Part shown: piece after piece, positions 61,130 to 63,900 of the stretch
Layout of the letters: each line of letters opens with the position of its first letter
Numbering within the stretch: position 1 is the stretch's first letter
Assembly: GCF_014203015.1 (NCBI RefSeq)
Contig: NZ_JACHIB010000004.1
Location: 1-64,000 of the forward strand
Reading direction: 5' to 3'
Length of the DNA stretch: 64,000 bases
Source: Castellaniella defragrans
GTDB taxonomy: Bacteria > Pseudomonadota > Gammaproteobacteria > Burkholderiales > Burkholderiaceae_B
Made by a program: the position numbers and the translations under genes
Notes under the pieces: model-generated
Databases searched by the model: none
Told to the model about the DNA's origin: nothing
What the model saw: only the letters and a program-made list of their open reading frames with translations

Positions 61130-62542
61130 CTAGGCGGCCGGCGGCAGAATCTTGCCGGGGTTGAGCACGTTGCGCGGGTCCAGCGCGGCCTTCAGGGCCG
61201 CCATCACGTCCAGGGCGTCCTGGCCGTGCTCGGCGCGCATGAAGGCCTGCTTGTGCAGGCCGACGCCGTGCTCGCCGGTGCAGGTGCCCTGCATGGCGAT
61301 GGCGCGCGCCACCAGGCGCTGGTTCAGGCGTTCGGATTCGGCCCATTCGTCCGGATCGTCCGGGTCGAGCAGCATCAGCACGTGGAAGTTGCCGTCGCCC
61401 ACGTGGCCCACGATGGTGTAGGGAAAGCTCGCCTGGTCCAGCTCGCGCGCGGTTTCCCCCACGCATTCGGCCAGCCGGGAGATCGGCACGCACACGTCGG
61501 TGGTGCTGGAGCGGCAGCCGGGGCGCAGCTGCAGGCCGGCGAAATAGGCGTTGTGCCGCGCCGTCCACAGGCGGCTGCGGTCCTCGGGGCGGTCGGCCCA
61601 CTGGAAATCCTGGCCGCCGTGCTCGCGCGCGATGGCCTGCACCGATTCGGCCTGCTCGCGCACCGAGGCCGGGCTGCCGTGGAATTCAAACAGCAGCAGC
61701 GGCGATTCGCGCAGGCTCAGGTGGCTGTAGCGGTTGGTGGCCCGCACGGCGTGGGCGTCCATGAATTCGATGCGGGCCACCGGCACGCCCATCTGGATGA
61801 CCTCGATCACGCTTTGGACGGCGGCGTCCAGGTCGGGGAAATTGCAGATCGCGGCGGACACGGCCTCGGGCTGCGGATACAGGCGCACGGTGACTTCGAC
61901 GATGATCCCCAGGGTGCCCTCGCTGCCCACGAACAGGCGGGTCAGGTCGTAGCCGGCCGAGGACTTGCGCGCCCGGCTGGCGGTCTCGATCACGCGGCCG
62001 TCGGCCGTGACGACCTTCAGCGACATGACGTTCTCGCGCATGGTGCCGTAGCGCACGGCGTTGGTGCCCGAGGCGCGCGTGGCCGCCATGCCGCCCAGGC
62101 TGGCGTCGGCGCCCGGGTCGATGGGGAAGAACAGGCCGGTGTCGCGCAGGGCTTCGTTGAGCTGCTTGCGGGTCACGCCCGCCTGCACCGTGGCGGTGAA
62201 GTCCTCGGCGTGCACGGCCACGATCCGGTCCATCCCGGACAGGTCCAGGCACACGCCGCCCTGGACCGCCAGCAGGTGGCCTTCCAGGGACGAGCCCGCG
62301 CCGTAGGGGATCAGGGCGATGCCGTGGTCGTGGCAATGGCGCGCCACCCAGGCGACCTCGTCCACGTCCCGGGCGTAGACCACCGCGTCGGGCGGCATGA
62401 CCGGATACGGGGATTCGTCGCGACCATGGTGCTCGCGCACCGCCTGCGCCGTGGAGCAGCGCTCGCCGAAGCGCGCGGCCAGCGCGTCGAGGAAGCCATC
62501 CGGCAAGGGCCGGGCCCGCTGGGCGATGTGCAAGGTATCCAT
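61130..62542 (-). CDS. FAD-linked D-lactate dehydrogenase-like oxidase
   Basis: Flavoprotein of 470 residues in the D-lactate dehydrogenase (cytochrome)/GlcD family: YGAGSSLEGH, PGADASLGGMAATRASGTNAVRYG, FVGSEGTLGIIVEVTVRLYP, then GHVGDGNFHVLMLLD and TGEHGVGLHKQ. This pattern is closer to Dld/DLD1-type D-2-hydroxyacid oxidases than to GlcD, so the substrate may be D-lactate or a related acid. It stands between aroG (57 nt) and glcD (16 nt) on the same strand. Confidence 0.88.
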   Translation of the reverse strand: MDTLHIAQRARPLPDGFLDALAARFGERCSTAQAVREHHGRDESPYPVMPPDAVVYARDVDEVAWVARHCHDHGIALIPYGAGSSLEGHLLAVQGGVCLDLSGMDRIVAVHAEDFTATVQAGVTRKQLNEALRDTGLFFPIDPGADASLGGMAATRASGTNAVRYGTMRENVMSLKVVTADGRVIETASRARKSSAGYDLTRLFVGSEGTLGIIVEVTVRLYPQPEAVSAAICNFPDLDAAVQSVIEVIQMGVPVARIEFMDAHAVRATNRYSHLSLRESPLLLFEFHGSPASVREQAESVQAIAREHGGQDFQWADRPEDRSRLWTARHNAYFAGLQLRPGCRSSTTDVCVPISRLAECVGETARELDQASFPYTIVGHVGDGNFHVLMLLDPDDPDEWAESERLNQRLVARAIAMQGTCTGEHGVGLHKQAFMRAEHGQDALDVMAALKAALDPRNVLNPGKILPPAA

Positions 62543-62599: not shown

Positions 62600-63697
62600 T
62601 CAGGCGGCGCTGCCGACCGGCTCGGCCGCCGCGCCCACGGCCTGGCGGCGCGCGCGCACCGCGGCGGCCAGGCGGTCGAGCACGGCCACCGTCGTGTCCC
62701 AGTCCACGCAGCCGTCGGTGATGCTCTGACCATACACCAGGGGCTTGCCCGGCACCAGGTCCTGGCGGCCGCCCACCAGGTGGCTTTCCACCATGACGCC
62801 GAACAGGCGCATGTCGCCGGCCTCGACCTGGGTGCAGATGTCCTCGATCACCAGGGGCTGGCGGGCGTAGTCCTTGCTGCTGTTGGCGTGGCTGGCGTCC
62901 ACCATGACGCGCGGGCGCATGCCGGCCTTTTCCAGGGCCGCGGCCGCCGCCTGGACGTGCTCGGCCTGGTAGTTGGGCGCCTTGCCGCCGCGCAGGATCA
63001 CGTGGCAGTCCTCGTTGCCGCGCGTGGACACGATGGCGGAATGCCCGCCCTTGGTGACCGAGAGGAAGTAGTGCGGCTGCGACGAGGCCTTGAGCGCGTC
63101 GATGGCGATGCGCGTGTTGCCATCGGTGCCGTTCTTGAAGCCCACCGGGCAGGACAGCCCCGAGGCCAGCTCGCGGTGCACCTGGCTTTCCGTGGTGCGC
63201 GCCCCGATGGCGCCCCAGGACACCAGGTCGGCGATGTACTGCGGCGTGATCATGTCGAGGAACTCGGTGCCGGCCGGCAGGCCCAGGGCGTTGATGTCGA
63301 TCAGCAGCTCGCGCGCGGTGCGCAGGCCCTGGTTGATGTCGAAGCTGCCATCCAGGCCCGGGTCGTTGATCAGGCCCTTCCAGCCCACCGTGGTGCGGGG
63401 CTTCTCGAAGTACACCCGCATGACGATTTCCAGGTCGGCGCCCAGCCGCTCGCGCTGCGGCGCCAGGCGGCGGGCGTATTCCATGGCCGCCTGGGTGTCG
63501 TGGATGGAACACGGCCCGACCACGACCACCAGGCGGTCGTCCGCGCCGTAGAGCACGTCGTGGATGGCGCGCCGCGCATCGTGCACCGTGCGGGAAATGT
63601 CCGCCGTGCAGGGAAATTCACGCATCACGTGGGCGGGCGGGGCCAGCTCGCGGATTTCTCGGATGCGGGTATCGTCGGTATTGTGTGACACGGTCAT
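62600..63697 (-). CDS. aroG: DAHP synthase (class I, AroG-type)
   Basis: 3-deoxy-D-arabino-heptulosonate 7-phosphate synthase (365 residues), first enzyme of aromatic amino acid synthesis: PEP + erythrose 4-phosphate. Motifs are VVGPCSIHD, RVYFEKPRTTVGWKG, IGARTTESQ, GFKNGTDGN, and VMVDASHANSSKD. The N-terminus carries the extension used by E. coli AroG/AroF/AroH for feedback by aromatic amino acids. Expression is probably set by the Phe/Tyr-rich leader peptide and attenuator directly upstream. That leader suggests Phe (and Tyr) supply is the controlling signal. It is first in a long minus-strand operon. Confidence 0.96.
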   Translation of the reverse strand: MTVSHNTDDTRIREIRELAPPAHVMREFPCTADISRTVHDARRAIHDVLYGADDRLVVVVGPCSIHDTQAAMEYARRLAPQRERLGADLEIVMRVYFEKPRTTVGWKGLINDPGLDGSFDINQGLRTARELLIDINALGLPAGTEFLDMITPQYIADLVSWGAIGARTTESQVHRELASGLSCPVGFKNGTDGNTRIAIDALKASSQPHYFLSVTKGGHSAIVSTRGNEDCHVILRGGKAPNYQAEHVQAAAAALEKAGMRPRVMVDASHANSSKDYARQPLVIEDICTQVEAGDMRLFGVMVESHLVGGRQDLVPGKPLVYGQSITDGCVDWDTTVAVLDRLAAAVRARRQAVGAAAEPVGSAA

Positions 63698-63733: not shown

Positions 63734-63766
63734 AAAAAAGCCGCCTGGCAGCGCCGGCGGCTTTTT
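63734..63766 (-). terminator. Attenuator (terminator) of aroG
   Basis: On the minus strand AAAAAGCCGCC, a 10-nt loop and GGCGGCTTTTTT form a classic rho-independent terminator between the leader stop and aroG. Its 5' arm can instead pair with the leader: CCGCCGG (63760-63754) with CCGGTGG (63816-63810). The inner pair ATTCCC (63773-63768) with GGGAAT (63804-63799) extends this antiterminator. Confidence 0.9.
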
Positions 63767-63780
63767 CGGGAATGTGTGGT

Positions 63781-63864
63781 CTACCTTTTAGTACAGCGAT
63801 TCCCTTCCTCCACCGGCGGCTTTGGAAACGTAAAAAAGTAGAAAAAATAAGGAATCGAGTGCAT
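63781..63864 (-). CDS. Phe/Tyr-rich leader peptide of aroG (PheL-like)
   Basis: A 27-residue peptide starting MHSIPYFFYFFTFPKPP: five Phe and two Tyr in its first 13 residues. It closely matches the known E. coli pheA leader [15 protein letters not shown] in both start and end of the core. It ends at TAG 63783-63781, 15 nt before the attenuator. An AGGA precedes ATG by 7 nt. Ribosome stalling at the Phe/Tyr codons would free the segment 63816-63799 to form the antiterminator; with enough charged tRNA, the early segment GATTCC (63856-63851) can pair with GGAATC (63803-63798) and leave the terminator free. The mechanism is inferred from this layout and from known pheA attenuation. Confidence 0.88.
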   Translation of the reverse strand: MHSIPYFFYFFTFPKPPVEEGNRCTKR

Positions 63865-63870
63865 TGGTGA

Positions 63871-63900
63871 ATCCTAGCACAGTCACCACCCCTGGAGCAA
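63871..63900 (-). promoter_or_regulatory. Promoter of the aroG leader
   Basis: TTGCTC, 18 nt, TAGGAT (minus strand; -10 at 63876-63871, with an upstream TGC that resembles an extended -10). Transcription would start near 63865-63864, at the A of the leader ATG. If so, the leader peptide would be made from a leaderless RNA. Another promoter further upstream is possible; 63901-64000 shows no clearer one. Confidence 0.6.

Follow-up and report, generated by a model that had tools for sequence, protein, structure and literature searches.

A predicted Phe/Tyr-sensing attenuator leader upstream of aroG in Castellaniella defragrans and other Proteobacteria

What is the role of a short reading frame crowded with Phe and Tyr codons in front of aroG, the gene for DAHP synthase, which is the entry enzyme of the aromatic pathway? 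Such a frame is found on the minus strand of the window, by which we mean the whole stretch of 64,000 nucleotides of Castellaniella defragrans DNA analysed here (Table 1). An earlier note had described three parts at this site, namely, a 27-codon Phe/Tyr leader, a strong terminator and a nested antiterminator, and all three are borne out. The leader begins with the ATG at 63864, ends with a TAG stop at 63783-63781 and has 27 codons. Seven of the eight codons 6-13 specify Phe (codons 7, 8, 10, 11 and 13) or Tyr (codons 6 and 9). The arms of the intrinsic terminator, AAAAAGCCGCCGGC to GGCGGCTTTTTT (63766-63734), end in a T run, and 91.9% of the terminator cells are paired across 48 aligned leaders. 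Both antiterminator stems are present in the window. The outer helix joins CGCCGGTGG (63818-63810) to CCGCCGGCG (63760-63752) and covaries in relatives, while the inner helix joins GGGAAT (63804-63799) to ATTCCC (63773-63768). When the window region is compared with dinucleotide shuffles, z is -2.17 and 3 of 200 shuffles fold as well. Judged from sequence and comparison, the site is very probably a ribosome-mediated transcription attenuator of aroG.

Table 1. Features of the leader region, its promoter and the adjacent genes in the window.
Feature	Position	Strand	Remark
Leader ORF MHSIPYFFYFFTFPKPPVEEGNRCTKR, including stop	63781..63864	-	Probably leaderless
Sensor codons 6-13 (Y F F Y F F T F)	63826..63849	-	Variation restricted to F/Y, 43 relatives
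Region 2, antiterminator 5' arm (CGCCGGTGG ... GGGAAT), within the leader ORF	63799..63818	-	
Region 3, antiterminator 3' arm (ATTCCC ... CCGCCGGCG), overlapping the terminator 5' arm	63752..63773	-	
Intrinsic terminator, regions 3:4, AAAAAGCCGCCGGC GCTGCCA GGCGGC TTTTTT	63734..63766	-	GC-rich, six T
Early pair GATTCC (63856-63851) : GGAATC (63803-63798)	63798..63856	-	In the window's minimum-energy fold
Weak -35-like hexamer TTGCTC, 18 nt from the -10 hexamer	63895..63900	-	Weak assignment, 3/6 letters
Extended -10 element TGTGC-TAGGAT	63871..63881	-	Sequence read and family comparison
aroG, DAHP synthase	62600..63697	-	NF006723 AroG 579.3 bits, cut-off 568; Pfam DAHP_synth_1
dld-like FAD oxidase gene downstream of aroG	61130..62542	-	Possible co-transcription, predicted

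The antiterminator is retained in the relatives. Its outer helix has 90.0% of cells paired in alignment A1 and 86.8% in alignment A3, and standard pairs account for 80.9% (A1) and 79.6% (A3) of all antiterminator cells versus 33-53% in slid controls. In A3, which comprises 84 leaders and leans towards structure because it was fitted to the model, there are 124 both-side changes versus 55.4 in shuffled alignments (0/500 as high) and no more than 60 in slid ones. Covariation is weaker in the unfitted A1 (23 cells versus 17.7 shuffled, 30/500 as high), and RNAalifold run on A1 found the terminator and did not find the antiterminator. The duplex between regions 2 and 3 beats its shuffles (at most 5/100 as good) in 40 of 48 leaders; the misses include L012 and L047, where region 3 was misplaced and the terminator energy is near -5. 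The RNA of both regions is highly conserved. The early GATTCC:GGAATC pair of the earlier note has a different standing. The window has it, and the minimum-energy fold of the window includes it, but in relatives only 45.5% of cells are paired versus 34-53% in slid controls, and it was rejected as a conserved protector. The duplex of regions 1 and 2 beats shuffles in 22 of 48 leaders, and the window folds one.

Folding of the remaining full transcript at equilibrium, with the ribosome stalled in mid-core, favours the terminator in 76 of 82 leaders (the 84 minus two rows failing the start/stop rules); the window is among the other six. Therefore, the antiterminator would have to form before region 4, and the decision would be kinetic in most species. 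Since equilibrium folding favours the terminator almost always, we used nascent folds. When the nascent RNA extends as far as region 3, this region pairs upstream in 82/82 leaders with a stalled ribosome, a figure partly built in since the fold begins at or before region 2, in 8/82 with the ribosome at the stop codon and in 54/82 with no ribosome. The ribosome-free pairing suggests that a protector hairpin may be missing in many relatives. Under the same folding, Escherichia coli pheL pairs 7/8 arm bases when the ribosome is stalled, 0 when it is at the stop and 0 when the RNA is ribosome-free, and shows no kinetic need.

The codons of the leader are constrained in two distinct ways. Codon analysis covered those 43 of 48 aligned leaders that offered a usable anchor. 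Counted back from the region-2 proline, positions -7, -6 and -5 always encode Phe or Tyr (43/43 leaders), and four more positions do so in 38-41 of the 43. In these three core codons the first base is invariant, the second alternates between T and A, and the third between T and C. Given that Phe and Tyr interchange and synonymous changes are tolerated, the constraint appears to lie on tRNA identity. This swapping of core codons across species is a natural experiment on the amino acids sensed. Within region 2 the pattern is that of RNA pairing. Third bases of its first six codons are nearly fixed (mean mismatch 0-0.09, with one codon at 0.26), and amino acid changes fall where pairing survives: V/A swaps (GTG/GCG) keep a U-G or C-G pair, and one pair is C-G in 25 sequences and U-G in 23. 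Outside the F/Y core the peptide is highly variable, save where region 2 RNA constrains it. In two Advenella leaders (L076, L082) the frame stops at the start of region 2, and the bases are largely kept (GGCGGAGGAAAGG or a near copy). The distances are also regular: 54/82 leaders have 7 nt between the last F/Y/W codon and region 2, and in 80/82 the leader stop is found 11-38 nt beyond the point where region 2 starts. Trp is present in 30/82 leaders. Leaders outside the window's family (L089-L111 and many of L120-L216) often add this residue, as in FYFYFFWYL or YFFWFWY. Lineages may therefore differ in which amino acids they sense.

From this arrangement we infer the following start site, leader translation, stalling and effect on aroG. 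Transcription would begin at, or a few bases from, the leader ATG, and ribosomes would load onto the leaderless 5' end. When both charged tRNA-Phe and charged tRNA-Tyr are ample, the ribosome would pass codons 6-13 and region 2 and reach the stop; with region 2 covered, region 3 would pair with region 4 and transcription would end before aroG. When either tRNA is short, the ribosome would wait at a Phe or Tyr codon and leave region 2 free to pair with the emerging region 3, so that the terminator would come too late and aroG would be transcribed.

The predicted start comes from the promoter. With the A of the leader ATG as +1, the -10 hexamer of the window occupies exactly -12 to -7. In 70/71 sequences of the family group, 6-9 nt separate the end of a TG-extended -10 element from the leader ATG, versus 4.2 expected from mononucleotide and 4.1 from dinucleotide shuffles; the sole exception, L068, has an in-frame ATG closer to the -10. 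The TG together with T1, A2 and T6 of the hexamer is found in 71/71 distinct family sequences, in a scan that favours such letters, and the best -35 match at 16-18 nt shares 4 or 5 of the 6 TTGACA letters in 52/71. In other families of the order the -10 stands 5-9 nt before the ATG in 41/78 sequences (3.4 and 3.2 expected), and outside the order 3/4 have an extended -10 at that spacing. The Burkholderia group has 0/16 at that spacing, and 7/16 have an element 35-36 nt upstream. One rule for Shine-Dalgarno-like pairing, applied to both genes, gives 7/71 leader starts and 71/71 aroG starts; the aroG value holds for a Shine-Dalgarno window placed 3-9 nt past the first aligned residue, chosen because aroG starts there, and falls to 12-20/71 at 0 or upstream. 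The promoter spacing in 70/71 sequences suggests that the leader mRNA is probably leaderless. Such a predicted start makes a link between initiation and attenuation testable. As for aroG itself, its listed ATG is 37 nt downstream of the leader/terminator region, but the gene probably starts at the GTG at 63691 (VSHNTDD) rather than at this ATG at 63697: several relatives open with VSHNTDD, and the Shine-Dalgarno-like spacing suits the later start.

How widely the element is conserved was assessed at 110 aroG loci (L001, L003-L111) picked by AroG similarity, of which 105 are distinct since five pairs are one record twice. The earlier note had suggested looking in relatives for the short ORF and for compensatory changes, and both were found: an F/Y-rich short ORF with a terminator precedes aroG at 91/105 distinct loci, and the antiterminator covaries. 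Three loci (L088, L101, L104) were excluded from the leader count by hand. One of them, L101 from an Oxalobacteraceae MAG, has an F/Y-rich short ORF and a terminator-like end; thus, 91/105 is slightly low. A locus of the same genus, L005, is identical over the compared stretch to L061, that is, Castellaniella caeni NBRC 101664. Leader-bearing genera include Achromobacter, Bordetella, Alcaligenes, Pusillimonas, Advenella, Burkholderia and Paraburkholderia. Phe and Tyr are both present in 91/91 leaders, and Trp too in 23. Among these aroG loci the T run of the terminator ends 14-148 nt short of the aroG start. The aroG upstream regions of L065, L069, L078, L081 and L083-L087, which are mostly Alcaligenaceae-type MAGs, showed no F/Y-rich leader. 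At these same loci a gene ending in ...EGLTVGGTA, presumably resembling tldD, closes just before aroG. In a sample of the family, drawn mainly by genus, the leader is present at 28/33 primary aroG copies (model R2, at least 42.9 bits) and at 0/7 second copies (L295-L301, about 60-62% identity). The five leader-less members have genomes of 0.7-3.2 Mb.

Two covariance models, R1 built from 48 leaders and R2 from 84, extend the range. In the own genome R1 has a single match up to E 1. Across the order R1 matches 76/399 genomes at 77 sites, 70 of which were inspected, and 70/70 sit 14-133 nt upstream of an aroG on the same strand; eight of these sites, from the own family, overlap the training set, and four Burkholderia-type rows were also trained on. 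The aroG products at the 70 sites are 58-100% identical to that of the window, and nearly all sites have an F/Y/W-rich peptide. R2 matches 108/399 genomes, which amounts to 27% of the sampled genomes of the order under strict filters, and 18 of 20 further sites stand before aroG (among them L219, without a clear F/Y core). The two exceptions are a partial match (L220) and a site before another gene (L217). With two more sites of family f27 that were also inspected (L251, L252) and that likewise stand before another gene, 88/92 inspected sites in the order precede aroG. The class sample has matches in 10/369 genomes: three are from the order, four are real aroG leaders outside it, and three (L198-L200, E 0.007-0.009) are not at aroG and were set aside as apparent chance matches. 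In family f63, 14/60 genomes match and 12/12 inspected sites precede aroG; in family f253, 7/80 genomes match. The phylum sample has matches in 39/299 genomes at E 0.001. Inspection of 18 of them revealed 13 aroG leaders from families of another class, four sites before pheA, whose genes were confirmed by Pfam, and one spurious-looking match (L247, E 3.6e-4), which is not at aroG and was rejected as a leader. On plasmid 1 of the alphaproteobacterium Paracoccus denitrificans PD1222, the leader MSHRMPCTISFYWFRCPQRSRV, scoring 36.4 bits, precedes the DAHP synthase gene. No leader was found at the aroG copies of Caballeronia and Cupriavidus on replicons filed as plasmids. In an AroG protein tree of 62 rows, leader-bearing enzymes cluster by lineage and leader-less ones are scattered. 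This grouping fits an old element with several losses in a tree whose root is not fixed and in which long branches meet.

Two kinds of site depart from the common arrangement. In family f27, an F/Y/W leader, e.g., MNTFSAVFNAYFYWYRSSRRLQGASLH, stands before a non-aroG gene at L217 (G396), L251 (G425) and L252 (G264). These leaders have a terminator-like stem with a poor T run, and the downstream gene encodes about 206-260 aa; that of L251 has no Pfam match above the cut-off. The f27 element is a candidate detached attenuator or trans-acting RNA. The second kind is L174, where the frame of the leader in front of aroG closes after MNCAAKFFF, leaving 20 nt to region 2; it is perhaps a decaying copy.

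Within the own genome there is one clear AroG-type gene; a second match is marginal (E 6.4e-4, 32% identity across a portion of the protein), and the search for a type II DAHP synthase gave no hit. The own pheA has no F/Y/W-rich short ORF (at least 5 in 10 codons) in the 3.5 kb of sequence that surrounds the gene. The earlier note had further suggested that the switch might control the dld-glcDEF-mnmA genes behind aroG, and this the comparison does not support. A dld-like gene lies behind aroG, in the same orientation and sometimes at a distance of 1.1 kb, at 70/87 Alcaligenaceae-type loci (at least 58% identity) but at 0/19 Burkholderia-type loci with the same kind of leader; the survey used about 1.5 kb of flank per locus, and some contigs end early. 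Thus, the switch goes with aroG. Four further Alcaligenaceae-type loci have a dld-like gene at 29-32% identity, and among the other 23 loci it is found in one, the gammaproteobacterial L107. In the window no terminator-like site was found in the interval between aroG and dld; read-through into dld would therefore be possible, and with it co-control of dld with aroG. The broader proposal of that note, that this lineage controls pathway entry by Phe/Tyr charging, keeps its core on comparison, i.e., a leader and switch before the entry enzyme, in a range wider than the lineage; the early pair as a general part and the co-control are what the comparison does not support. About 270 nt separate the aroG leader from the start of a divergent, upstream ABC transporter of amino acid type. 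Its genes, encoding SBP_bac_3, two permeases and an ATPase, lie just outside the window (L112:2133-5267).

Could the same parts serve another end? The leader and switch might have as their main output a short terminated RNA or a peptide acting in trans, as in the case of rnTrpL and peTrpL of Sinorhizobium, with aroG being secondary. A trans-acting precedent with a leaderless leader is reported (PMC7298713), and the f27 leaders L217, L251 and L252 stand before a non-aroG gene. However, all 70 first-round sites are close to aroG, the peptide is variable outside the F/Y core except under the RNA constraint of region 2, and the two Advenella leaders that stop at region 2 retain GGCGGAGGAAAGG or a near copy, so we consider a main output in trans unlikely. 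Still less probable is that the frame is a generic gene for an F/Y-rich membrane micropeptide, equipped with a terminator of its own and unrelated to aroG control. Short hydrophobic peptides could serve other uses, but such a gene does not account for core codon variation almost confined to Phe/Tyr, for a second, covarying fold that overlaps the terminator or for the presence of the leader at 28/33 primary aroG copies versus 0/7 paralogs.

The F/Y codons could also be incidental, with a protein or small molecule sensed on the RNA or with control at the level of aroG translation. The high conservation of region 2/3 RNA and the antiterminator seen in 54/82 nascent folds without a ribosome would agree with another sensor of this kind. 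Yet an RNA aptamer leaves the codon pattern unexplained, no Rfam riboswitch or leader is found at the gathering score in the 15 aroG-linked loci, and the terminator, closed by a T run, lies 14-148 nt upstream of where aroG starts. We give this explanation as little credence as the micropeptide gene. Ribosome-mediated attenuation of aroG transcription is the reading we retain.

Its mechanism is the classical one of ribosome-stalling attenuation; new, within the searched literature, is the placement on the entry enzyme AroG in Proteobacteria. No aroG attenuator in Proteobacteria was found in a search of open-licence PMC text; comparative surveys published elsewhere may contain an earlier prediction. 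Nor did the papers found name a regulator of betaproteobacterial aroG or explain how Betaproteobacteria govern flux into the aromatic amino acids. Taking the evidence as a whole, we lean towards an old, widespread proteobacterial element: a leaderless leader which would jointly sense the charging of Phe and Tyr tRNAs, in many lineages also Trp tRNA, gate entry into the aromatic pathway, replace TyrR/TrpR-type control in Betaproteobacteria and ride with aroG to other families of the class and to Alphaproteobacteria. If one element reads two or three aromatic tRNAs at the point of entry, it would account for the service of a single DAHP synthase to several products.

Among known systems, the DAHP synthase genes of E. 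coli are under the protein repressors TyrR and TrpR (PMC11878033, PMC5343134). This control acts on the same enzyme step with protein repressors, unlike the RNA leader of the window. According to PMC5343134, TyrR and TrpR are absent outside Gammaproteobacteria in the genomes surveyed, and the aroG leader may therefore be the missing control. A Phe-codon uORF with a terminator before a DAHP synthase gene has been predicted for Acholeplasma aroF, namely, the uORFC-13-1 motif (PMC8632094), the one published precedent for this target that was found; by its description there, this motif is known solely from Acholeplasma and environmental sequences (24 representatives) and has an RBS. The leaderless trpL-trpE(G) attenuator of Sinorhizobium meliloti, in which the trpL RNA starts at the leader ATG according to PMC7298713, shares leaderless transcription attenuation with our system; the codons there are for Trp, and the start in the window is predicted from spacing. 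A counterpart with a similar core peptide is E. coli pheL-pheA (RF01859 Phe_leader). The label 'PheL-like' given in the earlier note is apt for the mechanism and the core peptide but not for family membership: the window scores 25.8 bits against Rfam Phe_leader, for which the gathering score is 55. Among 18 loci searched with Rfam 15, 0/15 aroG-linked loci have a match at the gathering score, and of three pheA loci L113 and L245 reach that of Phe_leader and L246 does not. Conversely, R2 finds E. coli pheL weakly (29.3 bits), and four other pheA sites were matched. The pheL leader controls pheA, whereas that of the window precedes aroG; pheL has Phe without Tyr codons and stops before its GGGAGGC segment, whereas the window ORF runs through region 2. 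Common to both are a core peptide akin to IPYFFYFFTFP of the window and a terminator with a competing stem.
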